From Dysidea avara (Eukaryota; Porifera; Demospongiae; Dictyoceratida; Dysideidae), in contig NC_089285.1 of the NCBI RefSeq assembly GCF_963678975.1, positions 3,756,531 through 3,820,530 on the forward strand: a stretch of DNA of 64,000 nt, in the 5' to 3' direction. The notes beneath the pieces are model-generated. The model saw nothing but the letters and a program-made list of their open reading frames with translations. It did no database searches and was not told the origin of the DNA. Below, piece by piece: positions 5,370 through 63,530 of the stretch. Numbering within the stretch: position 1 is the stretch's first letter; each line of letters opens with the position of its first letter. The translations under genes were made by a program, and so were the position numbers.

Positions 5370-6142
5370 TGATCCATGTAGAATGGAATGGACAAAGAAT
5401 TAAATCTCACACAACTGTATATTCATGATCACATGGAGTGCAATCATGAGCACACAAGCACACCTTGTGGTGCTCATGTGCTCTGCACACAATACGCAAG
5501 TGCATAAGCACCCCTTGTGGTGCCTATGCACTTCTGGTGGTAAATAAAATAGCACAACACTACACACAACTATCCACGATCCATGTAAAATGGTAGACAG
5601 AAATACAATCTATTGTCCGTGATCCATGTGGAATAGAATTATGAGCACACAAGCACACCTTGTGGTGCTCATGTGCTCTACACACAATACGAAAGTGCAT
5701 AAGCACCCCTTGTGGTGCCTATGCACTTCTGGTGGTAAATAAAATAACACAGACTAAACCACAGATCCACGTACAGTGGTATGGACAGATAATAAAATAA
5801 CACACACGCATCCATGATCCACGTAGAGTGGTACGGACAGACACACACCACACACAACTATACACATCCATGATCCAGGTAGAGTGGTATGGACAGATAA
5901 CAAAATAACACACACCACACACATCATGATTCACGTAGAGTGGTACAGATAGATAATAAAAGAATGTGCACCACACACATCCAAGATCCATGTAGAGTGG
6001 TATAGACAGAAAATAAAATGACATACCACACACAACTATGCACATCTATGATCTATGTAGAGTGGTATGGGTAGATAATAAAATAATGCACACCACGCAC
6101 ATCCGTGATCCACGTAGAGTGGTACGGACAGATAATAAAATC

Positions 6143-6173
<31 letters not shown>

Positions 6174-6425
6174 ACAAAAGCACATCCATGATCCACGTAG
6201 AATGGTACGGACAGATAATAAAATGACACACATCACACACATCCATGATTCACGTATAGTGGTACAGATAGATAATAAAAGAATGTGCACCACACACATC
6301 CAAGATCCATGTAGAGTGGTATAGACAGATAACAAAATAATGCACACCACACATATCCATGATCCACGTAGAGTGGTAGACAGATAATAAAATAACACAC
6401 ACTACACATAAATAGACATGATCAA
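5370..6425. repeat. Tandem repeat array inside piggyBac
   Basis: A degenerate unit of about 55-65 bp, ATCCATGATCCACGTAGAGT followed by GGTACGGACAGATAATAAAA and a CA-rich spacer, repeats roughly 12-15 times. Two longer variants (about 5440-5560 and 5635-5755) contain near-palindromic AGCAC...GTGCT segments. A (CA)n tract lies at about 6145-6172. All ORFs across this stretch are by-products of the repeat. Confidence 0.8.
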
Positions 6426-16562: not shown

Positions 16563-17118
16563 GCGATTGCCCTTGAATTCTGTAATGATGAAGTTTGTAA
16601 AGTAGTCTTTGGTGTGGGACGGAATCAAAAGCCTTTTTAAAATCTATAAATATTACATCAATTTGAGAGCCTTTGTCTAATGTCCTCTGAATATCTTCAA
16701 CAACAGAGATAAGTTGTGTTTCACATAAGTGGCTAGGACGGAAACCAAACTGTTGATTAGTCAGAATATAATTACCTTCAAAATGCTTTGATGTATGGTG
16801 ATACAGTATCTATTCAAGTAGCTTACAACACACTGAGTTTAAGGAAATAGATCTATAGTTGCTTGGATTACTGCAATCCCCTTTCTTAATTATGAGAATT
16901 ACATTTGCTGTTAACCAATCTCTTGGAATGTGACCAGAATTTAGGGATTAGGTATAGATCACTGTTAAAACTGGTGCTGTTTTCGTAGCACAAAGTTTCA
17001 GAACATAGGTTGGAATATTATCAGGACCAGTAGCTTTTTAGTATGAAGAGTTACAAGTAACTTTTGTACACCATCGATGGAGATAGCTATGTCAGGTATT
17101 TGGGTGTGGGGGGAATCA
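16563..17118 (-). mobile_element. LINE fragment (RT region)
   Basis: Matches 19166-19690 and 54690-55195 nearly base for base. On the minus strand it corresponds to the RT palm/fingers of the same LINE family as the copy at 18335. It is cut at 17118, where hAT-derived sequence begins. Confidence 0.75.
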
Positions 17119-18334
17119 TGGTTCCGTACAAAATAGATACAAAAATTTTTCCAAAACCATGCAGGCTGATGAATTAGATATAGTCAGTGCACTTACGTAC
17201 TTACTTAAAACTGTTAAAGAAATTGAGAAACTAAAGAAAAAACCTCTATCTAAGTGGGACACTTATGCTACCATTGTTAAAAAAGTGATTCAGGTAAATG
17301 GAAAACATATGTACCAAGGGCAAGAACTTAAGCATTTTTCAGAAACTAAATCCTATTTTGAAAACCACTATAATGAATTTTGCCAGTTGGTGGTGGAGAA
17401 TCTGCGTACAAGGTTACAGTGGTCAGATAGGCAATTGTTCAGGGATGTCATCTTTGTGCTAGCTACACAAGGCTGGGAGAAGATCCTGCAGGAAGATGAG
17501 GAAAAGTATGTTATTGATATTGATGAGGATAATGTAGTTGCCGGTAATGAGGATGACAGTAACGATGACTCAACCATCGTCAGATTCCTTAGATGCTTTA
17601 GACAGGTTGGTGGATCATTTCTGAATACCATTGGAATCTGCTGGGGCTGATATCAATGAAATCCAGCAAGAATTTAGGTCTATGGTGGAGTATTCCATTC
17701 AATTTATTTCACTGTCTACAATGAATTACAAGTCGGTGTGGTGGCATTTGTTTAATTGTTCAAGCTCATCAGAGTGGCGAAATGCCCTCCTTTTAGCCAT
17801 AATATTGTTTTCGTTACCAGCATCTAATGGTAAGGTAGAAAGAGCCTTTTCACAGGTGAACCTCATTAAAACCACAAAGAGAAGTTCCCTGTGTCAAAAA
17901 AGTTTGGATAATGTGGTTTCATTAAATGTTGATAAATGTCCACTCCAAGACTTCTCGGCAGATTCATCTATAGACTTGTGGTGGGGAGCCAAGCAGAGGA
18001 GACCTTCCCATGGCCCACGAAAACATTACAAGAAGCGGTGTTCTAAAGGGAAAGGAAAGTCGGCAGGTGACTCTCAGCCAAGCTTGGATTGTGATGTAGT
18101 AGTTCTGGATGATGAGGAAATTGAATATGATGCAGACGGTGATGAAAAAGAGGATGAGGAGCAAGGACAAAAGTTTGTACTTGATGACTGGGATGATTGG
18201 GTTTTTTAATGGCTTCACCGCTTGTGTAATTTACGTTGTCACATGTGTATTTGGTAATTTACTTCACCTTATCACTTATTACTTACCTTGTCACTTATTA
18301 CTTTACCTTGTCACTTATTACTTTACCTTATTTG
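17119..18334 (+). pseudogene. hAT transposase fragment (ZNF862-like), copy A
   Basis: Two overlapping plus-strand frames, 17159-17650 and 17631-18209, together cover the C-terminal part of a hAT transposase related to the ZNF862/KIAA1586 group. Near the end lie WWHLFNCSSSSEWRNAL and SNGKVERAFSQVNLIKTTKR, the hAT dimerisation (Dimer_Tnp_hAT) hallmark. The tail is acidic (DEEIEYDADGDEKEDEEQ). The N-terminal zinc finger and first catalytic region are absent here but present in copy B (40168 on). About 27 bp of unrelated sequence separates the hAT start from the broken LINE. After the stop, three copies of a TTGTCACTTATTACTTTACC unit lead into another LINE segment. A frameshift near 17640 and 5' truncation make it a relic. 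Confidence 0.8.
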
Positions 18335-21465: not shown

Positions 21466-21893
21466 TAGTGTCTCAAGTGTAACTCTCCAAGGCATAAATA
21501 GTTCATCTCTTAATGAATGGTTGGTTTCTTGGAGCCGTTTTGTTTATGACGAATTGTAATGCAAAAGCGACGAATTCTATTGCAAAACCGACTAATTCAA
21601 CCGCAAAACCGATGAATTCAATTGCAAAACCAACGAATTCAATTGCAAAACCGATGAATTCAATTGCTAATACCATACCTGTTTCACTGCCCATACAAAA
21701 GTCTCAATAGTAGCAGTGAAATTTATCCCGTATTTCACTGGTAGCAGTGAAAAAGTTGTAATTGCAATTTCATTGGCTAGAATTTATGTTAACAATTAGT
21801 GTTGACACATGTTTAGTACATAGTGACAAATTGCATACATGGCAACGCTAATGCACAGCATGCGTATATGCAGCGAGTATGGTATTAACTGGG

Positions 21894-22013
21894 AATAGCA
21901 TGGGTAGCAGTGAAATTTTGGGATAAATACCACTCTTGTTGTATTGGAAATGGTAAATTTCCAATACAACACTCGTGATATTTATCCCAAATTTCACTGC
22001 TACCCATGCTATT
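21894..22013. repeat. 120-bp hairpin
   Basis: Arms of about 55 nt (GAATAGCATGGGTAGCAGTG ... with its complement ending CATGCTATT) pair almost perfectly around a short loop at GGTAAATTT. The GTAGCAGTGAAAT motif also occurs at 21710-21760, so a further palindromic MITE may begin near 21670. Confidence 0.75.
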
Positions 22014-22072
22014 ACTAGTACAAACGGGACGAATTCAATTGCAAAGTCGCCGAATTCAATTGCAAAAACCTG

Positions 22073-22406
22073 TAATACTGTACTGTATGGAATTATGATA
22101 CGGGTGAACTGCCTGATCTTGCTCCTCTAGTACATGCCTAGATTTTTGCCAGAAAGATTTATGAGGTGAGGCTCATTATTAGAAATTCAAATCTGAACAA
22201 AACCCATGAAACCAGTTATTTCTGAAGAGGAACCTTGCTGTATGCTACTTTTGTCAACATTAATGTAAACTGTTCACTCACATGTTGTCTGGACCACCAC
22301 AGGTGAGTCTTGTACTGTGATTGTATCATTGGGCCGAGTCATAGTCTGCTGGGCTAATCGAGATGCAGAATCTAATGCATGCAAACATACTGATGTTTTG
22401 TGATTT
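22073..22406. other. Left flank of the satellite array
   Basis: No gene recognised. CCACCACAG|GTGAGT at 22293-22307 looks like adjacent acceptor and donor signals. Weak similarity to 31690-31730 on the far side of the array is noted under findings. Confidence 0.35.
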
Positions 22407-25400
22407 TTAAGTTGATATTGTGTTACTATAGTGTATTTGTTTACCTAAATAGTTGTTGTTATATGTTAACATTAGCATAAGATTATAGCCAATACATTTA
22501 ACTATGTTTCTTTTACTTTATGTGATTGTGTATAACTACACACATGATGATGATTGTGATTTGGATATTCAGCTCGTAAGTTGATATTGTGTTACTATAG
22601 CGTATTTGTTTACCTAAATAGTTGTCTTTACATGTTAACATTAACGTAAGATTATAGCCAATACATTTAACTATGTTTCTTTTACTTTATGTGATTGTGT
22701 ATAACTACACACATGATGATGATTGTGATTTGGATATTCAGATGGTAAGTTGATATTATGTTACTATAGTGTATTTGTTTACCTAAATAGTTGTTGTTAC
22801 ATGTTAACATTAACGTAAGATTATAGCCAATACATTTAACTATGTTTCTTTTACTTTATGTGATTGTGTATAACTACACACATGATGATGATTGTGATTT
22901 GGATATTCAGTTCGTAAGTTGATATTGTGTTACTATAGTGTATTTGTTTACCTAAATAGTTGTTGTTACATGTTAACATTAACGTAAGATTATAGCCAAT
23001 ACATTTAACTATGTTTCTTTTACTTTATGTGATTGTGTATAACTACACACATGATGATGATTGTGATTTGGATATTCAGATGGTAAGTTGATATTGTGTT
23101 ACTATAGTGTATTTGTTTACCTAAATAGTTGTTGTTAAATGTTAACATTAACGTAAGATTATAGCCAATACATTTAACTATGTTTCTTTTACTTTATGTG
23201 ATTGTGTATAACTACACACATGATGATGATTGTGATTTGGATATTCAGTTCGTAAGTTGATATTGTGTTACTATAGCGTATTTGTTTACCTAAATAGTTG
23301 TCTTTACATGTTAACATTAACGTAAGATTATAGCCAATACATTTAACTATGTTTCTTTTACTTTATGTGATTGTGTATAACTACACACATGATGATGATT
23401 GTGATTTGGATATTCAGGGCGTAAGTTGATATTGTGTTACTATAGTGTATTTGTTTACCTAAATAGCTGTTGTTTCATGTTAACATTAACGTAAGATTAT
23501 AGCCAATACATTTAACTATGTTTCTTTTACTTTATGTGATTGTGTATAACTACACACATGTTGATGATTGTGATTTGGATATTCAGTTCGTAAGTTGATA
23601 TTGTGTTACTATAGTGTATTTGTTTACCTAAATAGTTGTTGTTACATGTTAACATTAACGTAAGATTATAGCCAATACATTTAACTATGTTTCTTTTACT
23701 TTATGTGATTGTGTATAACTACACACATGATGGTGATTGGGATTTGGATATTCAGATGGTAAGTTGATATTGTATTACTATAGCGTATTTGTTTACCTAA
23801 ATAGTTGTTGTTACATGTTAACATTAACGTAAGATTATAGCCAATGCATTTAACTATGTTTCTTTTACTTTATGTGATTGTGTATAACTACACACATGAT
23901 GATGATTGTGATTTGGATATTCAGTTCGTAAGTTGATATTGTGTTACTATAGTGTATTTGTTTACCTAAATAGCTGTTGTTACATGTTAACATTAACGTA
24001 AGATTATAACCAATACATTTAACTATGTTTCTTTTACTTTATGTGATTGTGTATAACTACACACATGATGATGATTGTGATTTGGATATTCAGCGAGTAA
24101 GTTGATATTGTGTTACTATAGTGTATTTGTTTACCTAAATAGTTGTTGTTACATGTTAACATTAACGTAAGATTATAGCCAATACATTTAACTATGTTTC
24201 TTTTACTTTATGTGATTGTGTATAACTACACACATGATGATGATTGTGATTTGGATATTCAGATGGTAAGTTGATATTGTGTTACTATAGTGTATTTGTT
24301 TACCTAAATAGTTGTTGTTACATGTTAACATTAACGTAAGATTATAGCCAATACATTTAACTATGTTTCTTTTACTTTATGTGATTGTGTATAACTACAC
24401 ACATGATGATGATTGTGATTTGGATATTCAGTTCGTAAGTTGATATTGTGTTACTATAGTGTATTTGTTTACCTAAATAGTTGTTGTTACATGTTAACAT
24501 TAACGTAAGATTATAGCCAATACATTTAACTATGTTTCTTTTACTTTATGTGATTGTGTATAACTACACACATGATGATGATTGTGATTTGGATATTCAG
24601 ATGGTAAGTTGATATTGTGTTACTATAGTGTATTTGTTTACCTAAATAGTTGTTGTTAAATGTTAACATTAACGTAAGATTATAGCCAATACATTTAACT
24701 ATGTTTCTTTTACTTTATGTGATTGTGTATAACTACACACATGATGATGATTGTGATTTGGATATTCAGTTCGTAAGTTGATATTTTGTTACTATAGTGT
24801 ATTTGTTTACCTAAATAGTTGTTGTTAAATGTTAACATTAACGTAAGATTATAGCCAATACATTTAACCATGTTTCTTTTACTTTATGTGATTGTGTATA
24901 ACTACACACATGATGATGATTGTGATTTGGATATTCAGGGCGTAAGTTGATATTGTGTTACTATAGCGTATTTGTTTACCTAAATAGTTGTAATTACATG
25001 TTAACATTAACGTAAGATTATAGCAAATACATTTAACTATGTTTCTTTTACTTTATGTTATTGTGTATAACTACACACATGATGATGATTGTGATTTGGA
25101 TATTCAGGGCGTAAGTTGATATTGTGTTACTATAGTGTATTTGTTTACCTAAATAGCTGTGGTTACATGTTAACATTAACGTAAGATTATAGCCAATACA
25201 TTTAACTATGTTTCTTTTACTTTATGTGATTGTGTATAACTATACACATGATGATGATTGTGATTTGGATATTCAGTTCGTAAGTTGATATTGTGTTACT
25301 ATAGTGTATTTGTTTACCTAAATAGTTGTTTTTACATGTTAACATTAACGTAAGATTATAGCCAATACATTTAACTATGTTTCTTTTACTTTATGTGATT

Positions 25401-26427
25401 GTGTATAACTACACACATGATGATGATTGTGATTTGGATATTCAGTTCGTAAGTTGATATTGTGTTACTATAGTGTATTTGTTTACCTAAATAGTTGTTG
25501 TTACATGTTAACATTAACGTAAGATTATAGCCAATACATTTAACTATTTTTCTTTTACTTTATGTGATTGTGTATAACTACACACATGATGATGATTGTG
25601 ATTTGGATATTCAGATGGTAAGTTGATATTGTGTTACTATAGTGTATTTGTTTACCTAAATAGCTGTCGTTACATGTTAACATTAACGTAAGATTATAGC
25701 CAATACATTTAACCATGTTTCTTTTACTTTATGTGATTGTGTATAACTACACACATGATGATGATTGTGATTTGGATATTCAGATGGTAAGTTGATATTG
25801 TGTTACTATAGTGTATTTGTTTACCTAAATAGTTGTTGTTACATGTTAACATTAACGTAAGATTATAGCCAATACATTTAACTATGTTTCTTTTACTTTA
25901 TGTGATTGTGTATAACTACACACATGATGATGATTGTGATTTGGATATTCAGATGGTAAGTTGATATTGTGTTACTATAGTGTATTTGTTTACCTAAATA
26001 GTTGTTGTTACATGTTAACATTAACGTAAGATTATAGCCAATACATTTAACTATTTTTCTTTTACTTTATGTGATTGTGTATAACTACACACATGATGAT
26101 GATTGTGATTTGGATATTCAGATGGTAAGTTGATATTGTGTTACTATAGTGTATTTGTTTACCTAAATAGTTGTCGTTACATGTTAACATTAACGTAAGA
26201 TTATAGCCAATACATTTAACTATGTTTCTTTTACTTTATGTGATTGTGTATAACTACACACATGATGATGATTGTGATTTGGATATTCAGTTCGTAAGTT
26301 GATATTGTGTTACTATAGTGTATTTGTTTACCTAAATAGTTGTTGTTACATGTCAACATTAATGTAAGATTATAGCCAATGCATTTAACTATGTTTCTTT
26401 TACTTTATGTGATTGTGTATAACTACA
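22407..26427 (+). repeat. 169-bp satellite array of intron-like units
   Basis: About 23.8 head-to-tail units. Twenty-three unit junctions fall at exactly 22573 + 169n (n = 0-22, last at 26291), so there is no net indel over 22 intervals. Each complete unit starts GTAAGTTGATATTG and ends GATTTGGATATTCAG, so it has canonical GT...AG intron edges of 166 nt. The only position that varies strongly is the triplet between AG and GT: ATG nine times, TTC nine times, GGC three times, CTC once, CGA once. A milder variable site is the TAGTTGTTGTTACAT region, about 43 nt into the unit. The first unit has TT in place of its GT. The last is cut by the Tc1 element at 26430. A stray partial unit lies at 31597-31679. 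No ORF of note exists in the array on either strand. Confidence 0.95.
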
Positions 26428-26703
26428 TACAGTAGGGGACAAAATAAAGTTTACATTCCGGTAATGTTGTGTAGTTTCCATCATTATAATGACTGTGCAA
26501 TCATAAAACGATTGTACAAGAACGATAATATCAGCGTTTATATGATTACATAATTGTTTATATGATTATGTAATCCTTTATACGATGACGCGACCGTTTA
26601 AATGATTACGCAACATTTTAATTAATGAAGTTTAAGGGTGGCAACGTAAATTGTATCCTTGTGCAAAAAGTACATGTAGGTGGTTACTAGAGCGCAGGCT
26701 GTC

Positions 26704-29107
26704 ATGGAACGCGAAAGGCCAGTGGGTGCTCGATGGGCGTTGGCACTCATTAACAAACAAACTAGTAAGTCATTACTCGTTTGTGGTTTGTGGGATGTAG
26801 TTGTAAAGGATATACACCATAAAGCAATTAGTCAAATAATTTTTTACCACCCATACATAAACCACAAACCACTAGCCCATTTACCATTAATGTGTTTATT
26901 ACGCAACTCCTTTTTACAGAACACTACAGTCATTATGTTGTGTATTGGCCAGAAGGCAACGTTTCTTGCTTTAACTCTTCCAAAGTGCAGCCTGACAAGT
27001 TAGCTATAGGCCAGGAGTGCCAATTAACAATGGGGAAAAACAAGAAGCACAATGGCATTGTGGTGGCCAGAGGTAAAGAAAACATGCAAATGTTATACAA
27101 TTTTATAGTTCAATGTATATTTTAGGCACACAAGCTGAAATGGACAAGTTAGAAGACCAGTTTGTCACTGGTGACTGGGTTCCACCAACTGTCACCATGC
27201 CAGTAGTAGAAACTTCAACACCAACAGCACCTAAAAGAAAGACAAAGAAACGTAAACAGAAGACGAACAGCAATGAAGCAGAAAAAGAGAAAACAAAACG
27301 TAAATGGAAGACAAACAGCAATGAAGAAAAGGCTAAAGCAAAGAAAAAGAAAAATAGTGGTGAGTTAAAATAATTTTACGTATACATCAATAATGCATGA
27401 ATTACAGGTACAATTTTATTTGTCACACCAACATCTGAATTGTTTTCTGTTGAGGCAACAGCTACTACCTGTAGTATCTCTCTGGTGACATCTTCCAGTT
27501 CATCCACTGTGCAGACAGAAGTCCTACCTCCCAGTTTGGCAGCAACCACACCAGTAACTTTGCCAGTTGTGATACCTCCCAGCTTGGCAGTGACCACAGC
27601 TGTTACTTTACCATTGCCCCACAGTTCTACAGTGACAACGTCTCGTTGTTTGGCAGTGAATATGCCTCCTAACTTGACAGTGATAATGCCTCCTAACTCA
27701 GCAATGACAACAGTTCCTAGTTCGGCAATGGTGACACCTGCCAGTTTGGCAATGACTACACCTGTCACTTTACCATTAGTCACGCCTCACAGTTCTACAT
27801 TGACGACATCCATCAGTTCTAGTTGGGCAGCAATGACACCTGTCACTTTGACGCCTTCCACTTTGCCAATTGTGACATCTACAGTGGTGACACCATCAGC
27901 AAGTTTAAGGAGCTTCCCTTATGTACCACCTTCAACATCAACAACAACTAACCCAGATCTCTTTAGCTCGTTAGTGTCAGAAGTTGGAGAAATGACATCA
28001 CTGCAGGCTGACAGGGTCCTGGATCAATTACAATCCATTTATGGTGGTACCTGGGACCCATATGATGAGCTGACATTCTGTGATTCAGGTATTTATCTTG
28101 TACATCAAAGAGTTGGGATCACTGTTATATATCACAGGCTCTGAGAATGATATGCCCTGTAGAACAAACAACAACAGTAACAATAGCAACAATCAAAATA
28201 GTTACATCAGCAGCAACAGCATTGATGGCAATAACAGCATTGATGGCAACAACAGCATTGGTGGCAACAACATTATTGAAACAATGGAATTTCTAGTTGA
28301 TTCTGTAAAAACACTAATGGAGAATCAAATAACAATCATTCATCTACTCAAAACCGTGGAAAATACTCAACAAAGAACAAATGGTAACTAGTGTTGTGAT
28401 CTTATAGTTGTTATTATTTTTAAACAGAAATTCAATCTGAATCAACATCAAGCAGATACATCAATGAATCAACCAGCAGTGTTACACATCAACACAGAAG
28501 ACCAACACATCAACAAACACCGACATATCAACGAACACCGACATATCAACAAACACCATCAGCAAGCAAACAAACATCAACATGCCAACTAACAGTATCA
28601 CTCACTGACCAACAAACATCATCACTCACCGACCAACAAACATCAACAAATCAGCAGGCTTCATCATCGAATCAACAATTAACAGCAAACCTACAGGTGT
28701 CATCAGCAACTTCATCATTGGCTTCTTGCATTGAAATACCAATATCCGGTAATGCCCGCAAATATGGCATGGTTTCATCGAGTGAAATAAATTGTAATTC
28801 ATTAGTGGGTCCAGACATCATTGTAGCCAAGTACAAGAGATATCACAAAGAAAGCAAGGTGTCAATGTTAGCTCAACGACTGGCTCAGAAGTCATACTTC
28901 GGGGATTATGTGCTGGTTAGATGCACTCCACTTGGTAGTACACTATACCCTGCTCTTCCAATTGTAGAGCTGAATGAATTAAAGAGAAAAATATTTCAGC
29001 TGTTTCCAGAATACTGGCTGAATCCATTAAAATTTGAAAGCACCTGGACTGAATGTGCTAAGTCTATCGGCCAACGCTGCAAGCGGCTAAGAAATCAGAA
29101 TCCATAG
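26704..29107 (+). CDS. BEN-domain protein, six exons, carried in the Tc1 element
   Basis: Exons by GT-AG rules: 26704-26764, 26920-27072, 27126-27359, 27408-28088, 28138-28383, 28428-29107. All five introns are phase 1 and short (155, 53, 48, 49 and 44 nt). The joined frame is 684 residues with no stop before 29107. The start is the ATG at 26704 (MERERPVGARWALALINKQ); a GTG further up is not used. Exon 2 encodes HYVVYWPEGNVSCFNSSKV; exon 3 a lysine-rich probable nuclear-localisation region (APKRKTKKRKQK); exon 4 a long Thr/Pro/Ser repeat (PPSLAVTT-like); exons 5-6 Asn- and Gln/Thr-rich stretches; and the C-terminus a BEN-like domain (MLAQRLAQKSYFGDYVLVRC ... PALPIVELNELKRKIFQLFP ... CAKSIGQRCKRLR). 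BEN domains bind DNA and chromatin proteins. Role in the element is inference: targeting, regulation or a captured host gene. It looks intact while the transposase is not. Confidence 0.85.
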
Positions 29108-29752
29108 TCAATAAATTATTTATACAAGCTAACTACATATTATTGTTTACATACTCTCATATTACTGTATTACATACATAGTGACTATCGTGGAAATTAT
29201 ATGCAACTTACTATTTGATGATATGAAAATGTACCGGGTCATTATCATTCACCAGTTCCTTTATCTCGAGCTTTGACGTTGAACTAGGCAAGGACTTTTT
29301 AAAAGCCATGCGATAGCGAAAAATATTTCTTCGTATTAATTGGACTGCTTCACGTGAGCTATTGTAGAAGATTCCTTTAGCGTGTACTCATCTCGGTGTA
29401 GCAAAGATGCTTGTTTTGACTGAATACAAGTAAATGTGGCTTTCAGGAACGGGTGTTATAAGGGAGTTCCTTAGTGATTATCAAAGTAAACCGAGCTGAG
29501 TTTCCGTGATTACAATCATTGTCCGCTAAGCTGCTGTGATTACGATCGCTTGTGTTCCTGTAGTGTGATAGAGTGACGTTATGGGGTGGATAGAGGTTAA
29601 TATAATAGGACGTTCAGTATAATAGCAAAATCAAATTAGAGATAAACCATAGTTAGCTTTCCTCCATAAATTAGGTTCAGTTTTTCAAGTATGGTAAAAT
29701 TAAACATGTACGTAGTAACAATAAAGTAATATTATACAGATTGTATTTTCAG

Positions 29753-30748
29753 TTAGTATCCAGTAGCAGCTCCATTTAATTGTATAACTTGGTAATACTT
29801 TTTAAAATGATTGATGTATTTTAAACACTTGGCGACAGTCATGCTTTCCCAGAATTCTTTAATCCCATCTATTAGTTCTTGCTTTGTTCTAGGTTTTTTG
29901 ACACGTTGGATGTACTCTTTCACCTCGTGCCAGAGATTTTCGATTGGATTGCAGTCCAGCAACTTAGCAGGCGTTCGCCACCAGGTGACTTTTTGATCTT
30001 TCAGAAATCGCTTTGCTTCATTAGATGTGTGCTTCGGATCATTGTCAGCCATTAAACGATGTCCATCAGGGTAAACTTTCTGAAGAAAAGGGATCAAAGT
30101 CTCTTCAGGGTTTTGACGTAGAAAGAGCCATCCATTGTACCTTCAAAAATACATATCCCAGTCTTCCCAGGTTTGCTGATCCCTGCCCAGATGTGAACTT
30201 CACAAGATGTTTAGCTCTGAAATAACAATTACATACATTTACATTTTACACAATTTATTGCATTTATTATTATTAAATAATGAATTAGTGAATAATTACC
30301 TATGTTTTAACCGTGGTACTTCCCCTTTTCTTCGGCAGCAGAAACACTTGTGTGTCTCCAGTTGTACAGAGCACTTGTCAGTCCACACAACATTGTCAAA
30401 GTTATCATTTCGATGTTGCTGTGCCCACTCCAGACGTTTCAACTTGTGTGGTTCGCGTATTAATTGGCAGTAGGCACTACCCCTGAAGGTCCACCCAAGT
30501 GCTGTATGACAACGAAGAATAGCTCTTCTGGAAAGTTGGTGGCCCATTCCTGTTAACAGAGCGTGTAACTGGATAGCTGTGGTCTCGTCGTCCTCCATCA
30601 TCTGTTCATCGACTATCCTCTGTATTTCGCGTGTTATCTTCGAAGGTCTTCCAGAACCAGGGCTTCTTGCGATGGATCCTGTTGTTATAAACTTCTTGAT
30701 ACATTTTGCTATCCAAGTGACAGTTCCTTCATCTTTCAGCAGCTTCAC
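29753..30748 (-). pseudogene. Tc1-like DD34E transposase, decayed
   Basis: Upstream part 30748-30300: helix-turn-helix region (LLKDEGTVTWIAKCIKKF, then GRPSKITREIQ) and the first catalytic Asp in VVWTDKCSVQLETHK. A probable GT-AG intron (30217-30299, 83 nt) follows. Downstream, VHIWAGISKPGKTGICIFEG and ADNDPKHTSNEAKRFLKDQK carry the second Asp, and NPIENLWHEVKEY the Glu; 34 residues lie between the second Asp and the Glu, i.e. DD34E. At least two single-base shifts separate the conserved blocks (just after the intron, and near 30100). The front Met at 30748 is a GTG, and the true start is further up or lost. Family function: cut-and-paste at TA. Confidence 0.85.
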
Positions 30749-31091
30749 TATTGTTGGAGGTAGATACCCTTGTTGGTAATAGTATAAAATTTGCCGTTTT
30801 GTACCAAGAATAAACCATATTTCAGTAGCGCAGACAATCGAACAAACAACAACTGTTACAGTCTTTTACATACCTACTGCAATATACTTATATAGCTATT
30901 GTAGCGAACGTAAAAACACTTAATAAGTTTTATATGTGAATTAGCTAGGCACCCCAATTGTTATTGCTACGTAACCGTTTTTTAAAAGAGAAAAAACGTT
31001 TGTTTTGTAAAAACGGGGAAAAGTATAAAACGACACCTTGACAAACGTTTTTACTAGAGCAAATGTAAACTTTATTTTGTCCCCTACTGTA

Positions 31092-31362
31092 GTTCTGTGA
31101 TGTCTGTGTGATGGAAAGGGTGCTGGTAACCCTGGGAAAGATCTAAATAAAATTGTTTTCATGTATCTGTAGCCCATAGTGCTTGAACGGTATAATTGAT
31201 CATTTCTGCAGTGGAAGCTTCCTTAGGGTAGGGCATCTCCCATTCCTAGTTTGTGTCGAATCTGCCCAGCTATCATTGGGGTTTATGCACCTTCAAAATT
31301 TATCTTATTTTGGTTCTTCATATTATAGCCACGCGGTCTTCGATGATTCCTGTAATAAAATA
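31092..31362. other. Unassigned flank
   Basis: Not satellite sequence although the Tc1 element left the satellite on its other side, so the locus was rearranged or the array ended here. No gene recognised. Confidence 0.35.
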
Positions 31363-31565
31363 GGTGCAGCCTTAAAAAGCCTGGGTGAAAAAAGTTGTGA
31401 AATGAAAGGTGGGGGTCAACAAATGGCTGCAATGATGTTAATGCTAGTAAATTCAATGATGGCTGTACATTTTAAAAATTTATTAGTATTAACAGCATTG
31501 CAGCCATTTGTTGGCCGCCACCTTTAATCTCACAACTTTTCACCCACGCTTTTTAAGGCTGCACC
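31363..31565. repeat. 203-bp hairpin MITE
   Basis: GGTGCAGCCTTAAAAAGC at the left pairs with its complement at the right (GCTTTTTAAGGCTGCACC). The arms continue through GTTGTGA and the AACAAATGGCTGCAAT block. No convincing target duplication. Confidence 0.7.
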
Positions 31566-31596
31566 TTTTTTCACAGCTTTGGCTGTTTTTGTACGG

Positions 31597-31679
31597 ATAG
31601 CCAATACATTTCTTTTACTTTATGTGATTGTGTATAACTATGTACATGATGATGATTGTGATTTGGATATTCAGCTCAT
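31597..31679 (+). repeat. Partial unit of the 169-bp satellite
   Basis: ATAGCCAATACATTTC through GATTTGGATATTCAG followed by CTC, with a short internal deletion. CTC is also the triplet after the first unit of the main array. The sequence after it (ATTATGTTTTTG) is unique, so this is the original right edge of the array. Confidence 0.8.
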
Positions 31680-31749
31680 TATGTTTTTGTTAATGTTGTT
31701 CACTAACCTTACTACACCACAGCCTCAATTTAATGCCACCGCTGTTTAA

Positions 31750-32361
31750 CCTTTTAAGGACTGCTGCCGTAATATTACGTCTAAGTATATAGGATGTAAA
31801 CATAAAGTTGTAACTCCATAGCAATTAAAGCTGTGAGCTTAAAATAAAGGCCATTATATTTGCTGTTAATGTGCAATTCTTTTGATATACAATGCCAATA
31901 AACTACACTAGAAAGAAGTAGCTTTCTAGTTATATTATATTTACACAACAATAAAACTAATCTTGTACAAATCCATCCATAACTTTCACCTTGTTGTTTG
32001 TATGAGCTGCGATTCATGACGTTCTTCATTAGAGATACATCTAATGATATATAAGATCACGTGATGGCATTCTTTAAAAGGAGTAAATCGATGGCTTGTA
32101 ACAGATCGCATCGAAAAGAAGACAGATCATCACCGATGTTAACAAGTAGCTTTGTTAGTTGAAAATGGTAAGTTATACACACTTCTTATATTTCTGCTTA
32201 TTATTGATAGGTGAATCTGTACTACAGTTTGTGTAAGCCCTTGCTACTTTCTTGTGTTATGGTGATGCTACAAACTTGCTAAGTAATACAATGCACAAAT
32301 TTCATAAATCTTGTGGGTTTTCAGGGCAGGAACTGTGTAAATTACTGTGGTCCTTAAAGGG
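31750..32361. mobile_element. Possible TTAA-type MITE
   Basis: CCTTTTAAGGAC at the left and the complement of CCCTTTAAGGAC at the right, with TTAA on the left (31746-31749) and ATAA on the right (32362-32365). This suggests a decayed piggyBac-like nonautonomous element. Evidence is thin because the TIR is short and partly self-complementary. Confidence 0.35.
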
Positions 32362-32365
32362 ATAA

Positions 32366-34057
32366 TTATTTAATGCTCCTTTGTTTTCTCTTTGCTTATT
32401 ACTGTCTTGTGTCTCACACATTCAGCTGACTGCTGCTCTTCTCTTTGGTTACTGCTGTTACAGACCTCACACTATTGGTAGATTTGGTAAGTGTACAAGG
32501 CCTTGACAGCTATGGTACAAACATTTTGTAGTGTTTTTAGATAGTAGGCCAAAAATGTTAAACCATTGATACTAGACTTATTGCATATACTTGAGACGTC
32601 TGGGGCAGGGCTATTATCAGTCCTTCCCAGAGCCTTGCCATTCTAGGCCACTCATGTTGTTAAACTATGCATAGCATGAACCTATTCAGCTGTCATCCTA
32701 CAGTGACCTTTCACTATCACATTCCCTCTATCAGGAACGGAGAGGCTGCATTTGCAGCTATAACTCTACTGACAACCCCCCTATGTGTCAAAGTAGTGAT
32801 CTACACTATTTTTGGATGTGTGAATGCTTGTTTAGTAAAACAGAGATTGAAACCTAGCTTGGTTGTGTGCCAGAAAGGCAAGGGAGAACCAACATTTGCA
32901 CTAGCAGCAGCAACAGCAGCAGTGATGCCACTGCTTTTGACAGTTGAGCCAATATTTTCCCAGCATGTAGGCAGCAATATCAGCCCATAAAATGTGAAAT
33001 GTAGTTTTTTGCATTATTTGTTGCTGCTGCTGTTTTTGCTGATAGTAGAGCCTGCATGTACCACGTACATAATGTAGTCCTGCTGTTGCTGATAGAGCCC
33101 ACATCTGTAATACTATAGCTTGAGAAGTGTGGTATGTAGCTGTAGAAATAAATTCCAGTGCTTTGCTATGTACTTTGCTGTATAGCATTGCATTGCTGCA
33201 AGTAAAGAACAGAACAAACACACAACCACACAAACCACAGACACACAACCACAGACAAACACATATAGATAAGCTGCAGTGGTTGAAGTGTACACGACTA
33301 GAGGGTGAATACACAAATACTGTGCTCGAAATAATGTCTGGTGACCAGCAAGTTTCTGGATAATATGTGGAATTTCTGAGTTAGAATTTAAATGACCGGA
33401 TTAAAATTGTGGTTTGCATGCATTGCACTATAGATATGTACATATTGAATTTAATGCTCACCTCGCTGCACCGTTTGGCTCTTCCCCTGCATGGAATGAC
33501 ATCATTCATAGCTTCTCCCATAGTAGCTTGTCACAGTCAAGCAATTAAATTTTTTGAAGCACAAAGTAGCTAGCTATGCAGGCCCAGTATGCACTGAAAC
33601 AGGTTTGACTGGTTTTTAATTTTCTATGCACAATAGTACTACAGCGCTTGCTGTAGTGTGACATGGCAGCAAGTAGTTCAGGCCTAGGTTCAGCCGGTTG
33701 TAAGCATTCTTCTATTGTTAGCAGCACCTGCTTTCGAAGTCTAACAACAACATAGTTTTGAGTGACTTGTCATTGTCTCATATCCACTTCTGAACTGTTT
33801 TCCTTGACACTGAAAACTTCTTACTAGCGAATGGATGGTGATAGCAATTCTCTACTCAGATGCAAATTTTCTGTAAATTCAAGAGATAGATTAGGATCTC
33901 AAGAGATAGATTAGGATCAATGAGAAACTTCGTATGGCATACTGTCAAGCAATGGTCTAATGACAAGTTTAGGAGAGTTGCTCAAACAGGAAAGAGAAAA
34001 CCATGGCATAAGAAAATTTTCCAGTGTTCTAGTACTGAACTATAATGAATTTTCTCA
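32366..34057. other. Unassigned with CAG/CTG and CA-rich patches
   Basis: No supportable gene. Low-complexity GCAGCAGCAACAGCAGCAG near 32905, CTGCTGCTG near 33025, and AC-rich sequence at 33205-33270 explain the local ORFs. Minus-strand 33780-33840 reads KFSVSRKTVQKWI, a faint transposase HTH-like trace, too short to call. Confidence 0.4.
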
Positions 34058-58917: not shown

Positions 58918-61900
58918 TTAAACACGAGTTGTTATTTTGTGCCAGGGTTCTATTGGGGAATATACGGAGAATTTTTTTATTAAAAAATCTCGGATACTGG
59001 AATGCCTACATATAGTATGTGCAATAGAGCAACTGTTCCTGCAATTGCTTCTCTTATAGACTACTGACCAATTTCTTCGATAGCTTGGCAAGCTCTGTTG
59101 GAGGAGTTTTGATATAGCGCTGGTAGGCACCACTTTGCCAGCATCCCAGCAACTTGATGTGGCTGTCTGGTATCCTAGCTTGGGTTGCAGAGGTTGCAGC
59201 TCCAATCCGGAAGCTGTGAGTGTTGTACTGTTTGCAGTCAAGCTTGAGTTTAGATAATAAGGAGTCCAGTGCTGAGCTAAATACTTGACGGGTAAGGCCT
59301 CTTGCTTTCTGTGTAATAAAGAGGGGCCCGGCCTGGTCGCTTCTCATAGCTAAGAATGCCAGAATTGCTTTGACAGGGAAGATGGCACAGTCTGTTGCAC
59401 CCAAATAAATGTTTACACCTCTTCTAAAGGGGTCAGTCTTAGACTGCTTAATGGCCACCTGCAGTAAGTGGGGGTTGTCCTTGTTGTCAACTGCAATGTC
59501 CTTTAGGGATAGGTGGCATGTAGGGTCATAAGCAGCTGTGCTAGGTATGGTAAACTCACTCACTCGGAGGAAGCCAAAAAGGCAAGACAGCATGCTGCCC
59601 AAAGCAAAGCTTCTGAGTAAGAGGGGTTCTTATGTCGAAGAATGCCTCTAATCCGGTTTAGGACATGTATAGTGATTGGTAGGCGTACCCTGGACGGGTG
59701 AGAGATTGCTTGGTGCTTCTTGATCCCTTTTAAAATAATCTGGAGTCGCGGTGTAAGCTGCAGGCTGAATGAGTTATGGAGCCCCCTCAGGACGTGAATG
59801 TGCCGGACAGCTGAGAGGTAAACTTTGATGGTAGCCTGTAAGATGTTGCCAGTAGCTAGGTGGGTCACAAATAGTATCAATGTAGACTCCGATGCAGGTA
59901 AAGTGCGGAGATTAGTGGCTTTACAGAAACTGGTGTACCGTCGGATGCCTGCTGCATAAGTAGTCCTGGTAGTTGCGGCCAACCCCCCCTCCAGGAATTG
60001 ACAAGCAGATGTGATTAGCTGACCTCGGTCCAAATTACTGGGAACTGGTAGGCATCTAGGATAACCACCATTAGGTCTGATAGGGTGAGTTGAGCGCCCT
60101 TCAAGGAAAGTACAGTACAAAGTACATTATTGATATTGACAAGAGAAATATAAATCATTGTACAATAGTATGCTTAGAGAAGTATTGTTATGCACGTACA
60201 AATACTGAGAAGCAATATAATGCAACATCATAGTGTTGGTGTAGTCTTAACTTGGAACGTTATTCTGTGGGTCTAGTTACTGTCCTGCTACTTGGAACAA
60301 GGTGAGTACTGCTGAGTCAAGTTGATGACGCGTCTAAAATGGTGCATGAAGGTTGAGGAGGTCCATTCAAGGCGTCTAGGTGACAGAATCCGTAGCAACG
60401 GGGTTGGAACTTGTGTCGGGATATGAGAGGCATTAGGGTGGGAATGTAAAAATTGGGCAGCTTGATTTCTAGATAGCTTATCAGCGGCCGTGTTGAGAGC
60501 TCCGGGGATATGAGCAGCTCTAATAGATATTTCGAAAAAGGCTGAAAAGAACCACAAAGATCTTAACAGGTGCATGACCACTGGTTCCTTCGATGATCCT
60601 TTGTTGATAGCATCAACTAGGCCACGATTGTCACACTTAAATTCTAATATTTTTTGGGGGAGTAGGGGGCCCCAAATGGCACAGCTTATCACAATGAGCA
60701 CCAGTTCCTTCGCCATAATGTCTATCGGCTTCCATTCGGTAGACCATTTCAACTGGAACCAAAGGTTATTGAACAGAGCTCCACAGCCCCAGGAACCGTA
60801 TGCATCTGTCTCAATGAAGATATCCGGAGGCTGAGGGGTCATTGAACATTCCAGGAAACTGACACCATTCCAGGCGTGTACAAACAAGTACCACCATCTG
60901 AGGTCTGAACGAAAACCGTCTGAAAGGCGAGTAAAGAAGGATAGGCGGCGGAGACGGGCTGCTTCACTATACATTCTGGCTACAAATGTGCGTCCCGGTT
61001 TCACCACTTTTGTATCGTGCTGCAGCAGGCCCACTAGGGATAGTATCTCTCTCTTCGTGGCTTTCTTTTTCTTTAGCCAGGATGTTAGCAGGCTGCGAAT
61101 CCTATGTAGTTTATCTGGTGGCAGGTGTGCCATCATTTCTTGGGTGTCCAAGGTAATGCCTAGAAATGTGAGGGTATGAGATGGCCCTTCCACTTTTTCT
61201 AGGGCAAGTGGGATACCGAGGGTGGAACATACCTCCTTAATAGTGGCTAAGTTACATGCACAGGTGGGGGACCCTGGAGGCCCTAAGGTTAAGAAGTCAT
61301 CCAGGTAATGAAGAACTGGCGCAATTCCTTTTCGAGTGAGTATCCAGGAGAGCAAATCAGCTAATATATTAAACAGTTTTGGGGCTGCTCGAAGTCCAAA
61401 AGGTAAGCAGGTGTCGATGTAAAGGTTATGGTCCCAATGCATCGCCAGCAGGTGACGGTCGGCGGGGTGCACAGGTAGTAACCGGAATGCACTCTTAATG
61501 TCAATTTTTGCTAGTAGAGCGCCTTGTCCTAGTTGCATGATGCCCTGGATGGCCGAATCAATGGTTATATATGTGAGGGAGCAGAGGTTTTTTGGGGATT
61601 CCATCATTGACACTCTTGCCAGCTGGGTGGGACAGATCTACTATCAGGTGCCATTTTTTGGGCTGGTGGTTTTTGGGGATGACCCTGAATCTGCTGATGT
61701 GTGCATCAGGGATAGTTGATCGCTTGAATGGGCCAGCGACCCGATGATGAGTAATTTCATCAGTAAGGTATTGCCTGACAGTGTCTGGGTGCTGAAGAGC
61801 ACATTCTAGGTTGCGCTTGGCTGATTTCAGGGGCTGTGGCGGACTCTTAAAACCAATACAAAGGCCCTTAGAAATTCCGGTGATGAAGAATTGCACTAGC

Positions 61901-63530
61901 TCCTGGTTAGGGTGGCTTGATAGAAGCCTAGCCCAGTTCTTTGAATTCAAGGGGGTTGTGATGGCAGTGGCTTCATGTGGAACTTTTACATTGACAGGTA
62001 GGTCAGCAAGGAGGGCATTCCACGCAGGGACCCATTCTTGGTATGGGGAACAGATGTCGTCCAGGTGAATTCCAATGATATGTTCCCTTGACAAGGCTGT
62101 AAAGGGAGACCAGAGAATATTGCAGTGGCCTCACTATATTGTGTGCGATGTATGCATGGCAAAAGTCTTGCTAACATACATAGAGTACCCAAAACATGGC
62201 AATTATGATGTATAACAGTTTGTACACACATGAAAGCAAGTCATATAAGGAAGAGAAAAAAAATTACACTAATAGCTATGCTACTGAACATGACAAGGTC
62301 TGTTATGCTTTAAAAAAAGACAAACTTAAAGGTTCATTAGTGCTGGTGATCCCTTTTGCTGCTGAGTGGCTGCCCTCTTTCCCTGTGCGGGCACTCAATA
62401 GCCTTGTGGTTCTTGTCAAGGATGCGGGGGTTGTGCACGCACCGATAACAGATGTGGTCAAAGCGGCATGAAGCACGGGAACAACCCTCAGGGTTTTCAT
62501 TCCATTTTAGACAGATTTGAAACTTGGGTTCGGGAGCTGGTTGTCTAGGAGGGCGATACGTGTTGGCTGGAATCATCAGCTGTGATTGGCCAGGTTGGTA
62601 AGTTCCAAGGGGGTAGTTAGGAAACACCATATTCCAAATAGTGATGTCAATAGCTGACCATATCTTTATATTCGCGGCCAATGTTTTCAGGCGGAATCTC
62701 CGATCATAGACCACCCAGTGACCTGCACATTGGTAATGGGAGGCAGATATGATCAAGCTTTGGTAGCCCACTAAATCAGCCACACGTTCTGGGGTAGAAC
62801 GAGAGAGTACCGCAATGTATATACCAAAGCATTGGATCCAGTTAATGATATTATTTACTTCATTGAGTTTTGTCTTGTTAGTATGGCGATCCTCCTTTTC
62901 CACGTTAGCGTCGGCGGACCCCAGGTGGTCTGGGAGCAGTTCTGACATCTCAACAAATATCCCCTGCTTAATTCTTTTCACTAATCGGGCTGGCACTGGT
63001 GGTAAGCCATCACTAATTAAGATAGGAAGTTGGTGATAACCTTGGTCTTCGGTCTCTGAGAGATCGGGGGTTTTGCGAAGAGAGTTGAGTTCTCTGACAT
63101 GCTCCAGTTGGCTGCCGGTCAGGGTTTCGTCAAAGTCTACGAAGAATGAGTGAGATAAGAATAGTAGGGGAATGGTCACATAAGAAGATGCACAACAATT
63201 AGCCCTGTATGGGTACAATGTCATTAAACTACGGAGGTGGTGACAGCAATTGGATTGGTAATCAAGGAGTCCACGAGGGTGGAGGCACATATATAGCCAA
63301 TATTTTGAGTTTGGGACACATACAAGTCCAATGAGGATGTTGGTGGGCATTATAAGGAGTAATCAACAAGGCACTACCCACCATCCCTGGGGGGAGCTAC
63401 AAGTCATAATAGAGTGTGGGGGGTCTGAGCCCACAGTACCTGGAGTGGGTAGCTACTATTGTAACGCGGAAATATGTATATATATATATATATACACAAT
63501 TGTAAACAACTCTTAAGTTGTACGTACCAA
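58918..63530 (-). mobile_element. DIRS-type retrotransposon, broken
   Basis: A minus-strand fossil of DIRS/Ngaro type. Parts in order: a gag-like region with a CCCH-like knuckle (about 63350-62337), reverse transcriptase with a YLDD box and RNase H-like sequence (about 62094-60288), and a tyrosine recombinase with HSFRIGAAT and a YQRYI-type end (about 60120-59054). A tyrosine recombinase in place of a DDE integrase defines the group. The coding parts lie in different frames with perhaps three to five breaks, so it looks defective but not very old. Terminal repeats were not found. Confidence 0.82.
63471..63496 (+). repeat. (TA)n microsatellite
   Basis: About twelve TA dinucleotides between the gag-like region and the lysine-rich frame. 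Confidence 0.85.

Follow-up and report, generated by a model that had tools for sequence, protein, structure and literature searches.

A tandem array of intron-like units separated by hypervariable triplets in Dysidea avara: candidate exons of three nucleotides

Whether a satellite-like array can be a row of introns with exons of three nucleotides between them is the question raised by a locus of Dysidea avara. In the window, i.e. the whole stretch of 64,000 nt that was analysed (C14:3756531-3820530), the plus strand carries a tandem array of 24 units of 169 (22408-26431), delimited by TRF and by exact unit-start matches. Each unit is made of a 166-nt intron-like sequence running from GTAAGT to TTCAG and of a 3-nt triplet. 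The original prediction saw in every unit the appearance of a complete intron, separated from the next by a frame-preserving triplet that held the sole strongly variable bases. The observation is confirmed and the phenomenon is larger than first described; in the searched genome (550.8 Mb, 108 contigs), intron-like units with a 3-nt hypervariable spacer characterize a whole family of arrays. The interpretation as introns and microexons is partly supported, splicing being what we infer from the sequence.

The array in the window

The unit start TAAGTTGATATT occurs 24 times in the window, from 22408 to 26295, and the 23 intervals between occurrences are all exactly 169, in agreement with the fixed spacing first described. 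TRF placed the array at the same limits with a period of 169, 23.8 copies and 97% matches. The 23 hypervariable triplets, putative exons of 3 nt, lie on the plus strand between 22573 and 26293, at 22573 + 169 x i (i = 0 to 22). Their order is CTC ATG TTC ATG TTC GGC TTC ATG TTC CGA ATG TTC for the first twelve and ATG TTC GGC GGC TTC TTC ATG ATG ATG ATG TTC for the remainder, and recounting these 23 junctions gave the same five kinds as announced (ATG 9, TTC 9, GGC 3, CTC 1, CGA 1). The triplet aside, the 22 full units differ from their own consensus at 0 to 5 positions each; unit column 54 has an entropy of 1.19 in this array. The first unit (22408) is a half-unit without the donor G and with no acceptor ahead of it. 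The last one is broken at 26431 by inserted DNA of about 5.2 kb (26432-31608, no strand assigned), located inside the last putative intron (26294-31674). The 3' remainder of this last unit (unit positions 101-166, 95%) is found on the plus strand at 31609-31674 and ends in the acceptor GATTTGGATATTCAG. Taken as a whole, the array has neither donor nor acceptor at its start and only an acceptor at its end.

Several other elements are present in the neighbourhood. By eye, ORFs in the insert, including 29756-30865, have the look of Tc1/mariner-type transposases, ORF 17087-18206 that of a hAT-type transposon protein and ORFs 59057-62130 that of tyrosine-recombinase/reverse-transcriptase transposon proteins. 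A diverged tandem array of about 57 bp occupies positions 5764-6408. About 300 bases ahead of the putative first donor, a long inverted repeat (21904-22001), probably a small inverted-repeat element, gave five weak Rfam matches to microRNA precursor families, far below gathering scores.

A family of arrays on two contigs

The repeat unit gave 346 matches genome-wide. A search for its junction in the form GGATATTCAG-N(0-30)-GTAAGTTGAT returned 300 exact genome matches (146 plus, 154 minus), against 0 genome matches for the reversed control. As 300 distinct places with matching strand counts were examined, they represent the full set of exact junctions and not a sample. They are found on C14 (257) and C9 (43) and on none of the other contigs, where diverged copies could escape an exact search. 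Although 0-30 nt were allowed, the spacer measures exactly 3 nt in 300/300 exact junctions, and the triplets belong to 27 of the 64 possible kinds, without a stop codon among them. Thirteen further junctions, at least five of which were already among the exact-match lists, all have 3 nt, no stop and no new triplet, their donor being GT in 10 and AT in 3.

The arrays differ in length and in unit organization. The C9 array has 43 junctions, of which 41 are consecutive, at spacings of 176, 175 or 165, with the spacer and the unit ends kept. Spacer and ends are also retained at C14:3893795-3903541 (L026/L027), where 11 junctions are about 976 apart; this enlarged version of the same unit, with about 800 extra nt in the copies that were read, is itself tandemly multiplied, and the first six triplets are CTC CTA CTC CTC CTA CTC. 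At L011 (C14:6228500-6237500), a three-unit higher-order repeat TTG-AGA-GGA was found, with one copy reading TTG-GGA-GGA. Runs of 36 consecutive junctions are present in L011 and L013 and one of 41 on C9, where the two others lie farther on. The search for copies of the array unit in viral contigs returned none, and the search for Rfam relatives gave no match on the array (21500-32500, E up to 1). When homologous flanks were sought between C9 and C14, the upstream flank gave just two weak matches, located in a stretch that has matches at many other places as well. As a separate observation on this genome, 21 COX1 matches were located in nuclear contigs (L037-L039 and elsewhere), several of them with internal stops (TGA), and nad fragments were seen by eye beside one of them. 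Translated with genetic code 4, the COX1 protein has a demosponge-like look.

Diversity at the junction

A profile of the rotated unit produced 348 matches in L009-L029 and the window, 315 rows of which cover the junction. In 307 of the 315 rows the junction has exactly 3 nt and is free of gaps, as are its immediate neighbours; the eight exceptions are seven array-entry half-units, which lack about 13 bases spanning the junction, and one degenerate copy in L023. An indel elsewhere in the unit is carried by 68 of the 307 rows. Over these 307 junctions, the three triplet positions have a pi of 0.735, 0.462 and 0.717, compared with a mean of 0.041, a median of 0.014 and a maximum of 0.467 for the remaining 166 columns. 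The triplet is far above the average column, as had been anticipated, and the ratio of triplet to other-column diversity ranges from 12.8 to 72.8 in the 12/12 arrays with at least nine junctions. The claim that the triplet holds the sole strongly variable bases stands for the triplet as a block and fails for single columns: two of them, at 0.467 and 0.457, are close to the middle triplet base, and in each of these 12 arrays some single non-triplet column is also strongly variable (maximum 0.385 to 0.75).

The triplet also varies between units that are otherwise alike. Among junction pairs with identical 332-base surroundings, the triplet differs in 9/39, and among those with one surrounding difference it differs in 66/101, 40 of which at two or three of the three positions. 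Mutation steps inferred from identically surrounded units were rejected as evidence in their own right, because introns this uniform cannot reveal descent.

Splice-like signals at the triplet

Counting both strands, the cyclic unit contains a single YAG-N3-GTRAGT, which lies on the plus strand, and the N3 of this motif is the hypervariable block. That the only such motif of the unit coincides with the block is the main argument for splicing defining it. The rest of the window is devoid of CAG-N3-GTAAGT on both strands. Ends of the spliceosomal type are kept in the related arrays, as the original prediction required: the acceptor is AG in all 307 rows and the donor is GT in 304, AT in 2 and GC in 1. 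The conservation of AG and GT is matched elsewhere in the unit, 35 of the 166 columns having zero variants. Donor-dead junctions (ATAAGT) are located at the array start or in its interior in L010, L029 and L042 and are also found in L036 and L044. At these five loci a recurrent junction has CTC or CTT ahead of ATAAGT, the donor G being replaced by A; the dead-donor junction is the last unit found at L044 and the first at L010. One acceptor reads TTCAA (L033).

Candidate flanking exons

A segment common to sister loci abuts the array in the window (22073-22407, plus strand), as judged from sequence matches. Its array-side part (query ~988-1325) matches 15 places, all on C14 and including the window, and 14/15 reach the array-side end. 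It contains the putative first donor GTGAGT (22303-22308, plus strand), and GTGAGTC is identical in 10/10 aligned loci. This donor follows the hypothetical coding end of an upstream exon, ATG TTG TCT GGA CCA CCA CAG (22282-22302, plus strand), proposed for the window only: the codon aligned with the ATG at 22282 is an in-frame ATG at none of the nine aligned sister loci. An open phase-0 frame beginning with an ATG is found in the upstream exon of 3/10 loci, with 7 codons in the window and 33 codons in L016 and L021, which are near-identical copies. At the other 7/10 loci the frame is broken and contains a stop (by eye). Up to 1300 bases upstream at 10 loci, there was no consistently open exon and no signal-peptide exon was identified. 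The candidate exon is not significantly more variable than its flanks (15/49 columns vs 48/247 at nine loci, Fisher P 0.088).

Downstream of the array, a putative terminal exon (31675-31749, plus strand) is open in triplet frame 0 to a TAA, its other two frames stop at 16 and 29 nt, and an AATAAA is located past the putative stop (31843-31848, plus strand). Its start CTCATTATGTT has two genome copies within 3 mismatches, one of them after TTCAA (L033), and two other, near-identical loci have the related start CTTATTATGTT after their last acceptor. By eye, the first bases of the window's terminal exon resemble a unit whose donor was lost by a 10-bp deletion; the start reads like a unit minus GTAAGTTGAT, so that an exonised unit may have supplied the last exon. 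Other arrays end differently. In L010 and on C9 the last signal is a donor, beyond which foreign DNA begins; in L019 and L028, AACAT comes after the last acceptor and none of the three frames stays open beyond 15 and 21 nt, respectively. A terminal exon after six arrays sharing a downstream flank (TTTTCTCAG followed by CATTAT...) was considered and rejected, the acceptor-bearing sequence being a repeat with 101 genome matches at up to 3 mismatches. L028 also harbours, at ~750-1160, an element with inverted ends inserted directly after a donor; about nine bases including the triplet and GTAAGT are seen by eye on both of its sides.

Coding potential of the triplets

In the window, the conceptual product would read MLSGPPQ, then the 23 triplets, then LIMFLLMLFTNLTTPQPQFNATAV, i.e. 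54 codons open to the TAA. The 307 junctions comprise 27 triplet kinds and 0 stops. Across the junction triplets, stops are absent from frames 0 and 2 and number 47 in frame 1, in 13/20 arrays, or 46 when runs are interrupted at gaps. A column shuffle with all copies yielded for frame 0 a mean of 8.5 expected stops and a P(0) of 5e-5. The avoidance is weaker when repeats are collapsed per array (P 0.07) or when the 27 kinds alone are considered (P 0.52). For frame 2 the shuffle gave a P of 0.033. As phases 0 and 2 are both stop-free, at least one of them is so by composition.

Translated in frame 0, the 307 triplets would give L 102, G 47, F 38, I 34, R 33 and M 31, followed by the rarer N 12, V 5, H 3, A 1 and W 1. 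Choosing the frame from the look of the amino acids was discarded because it constitutes no test; frame 2 would give 19 amino acids and frame 0 eleven. The middle base of the triplet is T in 210 of the 307, G in 81, A in 15 and C in 1, and its lower diversity fits the wobble base in frame 2 or the class-determining base in frame 0. The sequence makes a moderate case for coding, in frame 0 or in frame 2.

Alternative explanations

In the main rival explanation, one that the original prediction had also raised, the arrays would be an unspliced satellite in which the triplet marks a duplication seam at the DNA level or a hotspot of mutation or conversion, GTAAGT and CAG being coincidental or part of the hotspot signal. 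They are indeed tandem and homogenised, with higher-order repeats such as TTG-AGA-GGA in L011, they sit amid transposon-like ORFs (by eye), they tolerate dead donors and their coding flank is inconsistent across loci. The triplet differences between similarly surrounded junctions (9/39 and 66/101, 40 at two or three positions) are those that block replacement would give, descent being unproven owing to intron uniformity. Such a satellite leaves unexplained the exact 3-nt block (300/300) between near-invariant bases, the position of this block in the sole YAG-N3-GTRAGT and the 27 of 64 triplets without stops. We know of no satellite mechanism that yields an exact 3-nt hypervariable block, and we consider this explanation rather unlikely. 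Alternatively, the 166-bp unit could be a mobile element joined through circles, the three bases being a coupling sequence taken from donor sites. Some insertion sequences and tyrosine-recombinase elements have coupling sequences where their circles are joined, and a fixed variable spacer of 3 nt between element ends would fit such a junction. Against this origin, which appears highly improbable, terminal inverted repeats were not seen by eye, the 300/300 exact junctions are on C14 and C9 and hence not dispersed, and the splice consensus at both unit ends is left unexplained.

Splicing could also take place without coding, at an inside-out or ratchet-like locus whose importance would lie in its introns or in taking out a long intron step by step, the 3-nt exons being free to drift. 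Conserved introns and variable exons are expected of such a locus, for which the broken exon frames at sister loci pose no problem. The array itself has no Rfam match, and free drift alone accounts neither for the excess of triplet over intron diversity in a homogenised array nor for a middle base that is T or G in 291/307. A spliced, non-coding locus is an unlikely explanation.

A possible array of 3-nt exons

We propose that the arrays are tandem 3-nt exons spliced between 166-nt introns and perhaps coding, a reading to which we assign a probability of roughly one half. The sequence directly shows how the units are built, that this structure recurs, that a sharply bounded hypervariable block of 3 nt has splice-like limits and that two frames out of three are stop-free; transcription, splicing, translation and selection of the arrays are what we infer. 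Weighing against this reading are the upstream exon frame broken at 7/10 loci, the equal openness of two phases, the unexceptional conservation of AG and GT and the dead donors of several junctions. The 166-nt unit would be an intron of the spliceosomal type and the triplet an exon of 3 nt. The transcript would begin upstream, with 22303 as its first donor and the terminal exon at 31675 as its last part. The near-identical introns would probably be removed one after another, so that a tiny exon would never need to be defined alone. Unequal exchange and segmental duplication would multiply introns and exons jointly, the introns remaining uniform and the triplets diverse. The simplest cause of this diversity would be diversifying selection acting, in a multi-copy family, on triplets that serve as codons or as parts of codons.

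More tentatively, the arrays may be both spliced and coding codon by codon, each residue of a hypervariable peptide being a separate genomic cassette that can be duplicated and exchanged. Since the introns match each other, recombination could shuffle, add or drop single residues without frameshift. The arrays would then generate diversity one codon at a time, conceivably in secreted or recognition peptides of an animal that lacks adaptive immunity. If spliced, dozens of consecutive 3-nt exons would put exon size and intron definition to an extreme test; if coding, they would offer a new, residue-by-residue route to peptide diversification. A satellite with a single, exact hypervariable block of 3 nt would, even without splicing, demand a new mutational or recombinational explanation.

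Comparison with known systems

The arrays resemble ordinary satellite DNA in their head-to-tail, near-identical and homogenised units and in their higher-order repeats, and differ from it by the one sharply bounded hypervariable 3-nt block inside a splice-site pair. Introners are near-identical introns made by copying and scattered over many genes. The array introns are likewise near-identical (mean pi 0.041 over 166 columns and 307 rows), but the unit is confined to C14 and C9 as far as the 300/300 exact junctions are concerned, from which diverged copies could escape. In recursive (ratchet) splicing, a long intron is removed stepwise at ratchet points where AG is directly followed by GT. The arrays share with it acceptor-donor sites; its classical form, which the original prediction had considered, is absent here as three bases always separate AG from GT (300/300). 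Among the papers listed by searches of open-access literature, no description of near-identical introns with 3-nt exons was found.

Exons of one to a few nucleotides and series of short exons are already known (PMC10526429, PMC8831610). Introns can be gained by tandem genomic duplication (PMC4974935). The spliceosome handles 1-nt exons, as in plant APC11, and GTRAGT donors are conserved beside such exons (PMC8831610); these ultra-short microexons are single or two adjacent and belong to ordinary genes. The micro-exon genes (MEGs) of Schistosoma contain 10-20 short exons of 3-81 bp (6-81 bp is also given) and introns of 0.1-5 kb; these exons come in series, have lengths that are mostly multiples of three and show few conserved motifs (PMC10526429). 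A conserved N-terminal signal peptide is found in MEGs; in up to 1300 bases upstream of 10 array loci, no signal-peptide exon was identified. If the 3-nt blocks between AG and GT (307 of 315 rows) are exons, the arrays would share with MEGs a succession of very short exons in multiples of three. In the arrays, every inner putative exon would have 3 nt and the introns are near-identical tandem copies, in contrast with MEGs.
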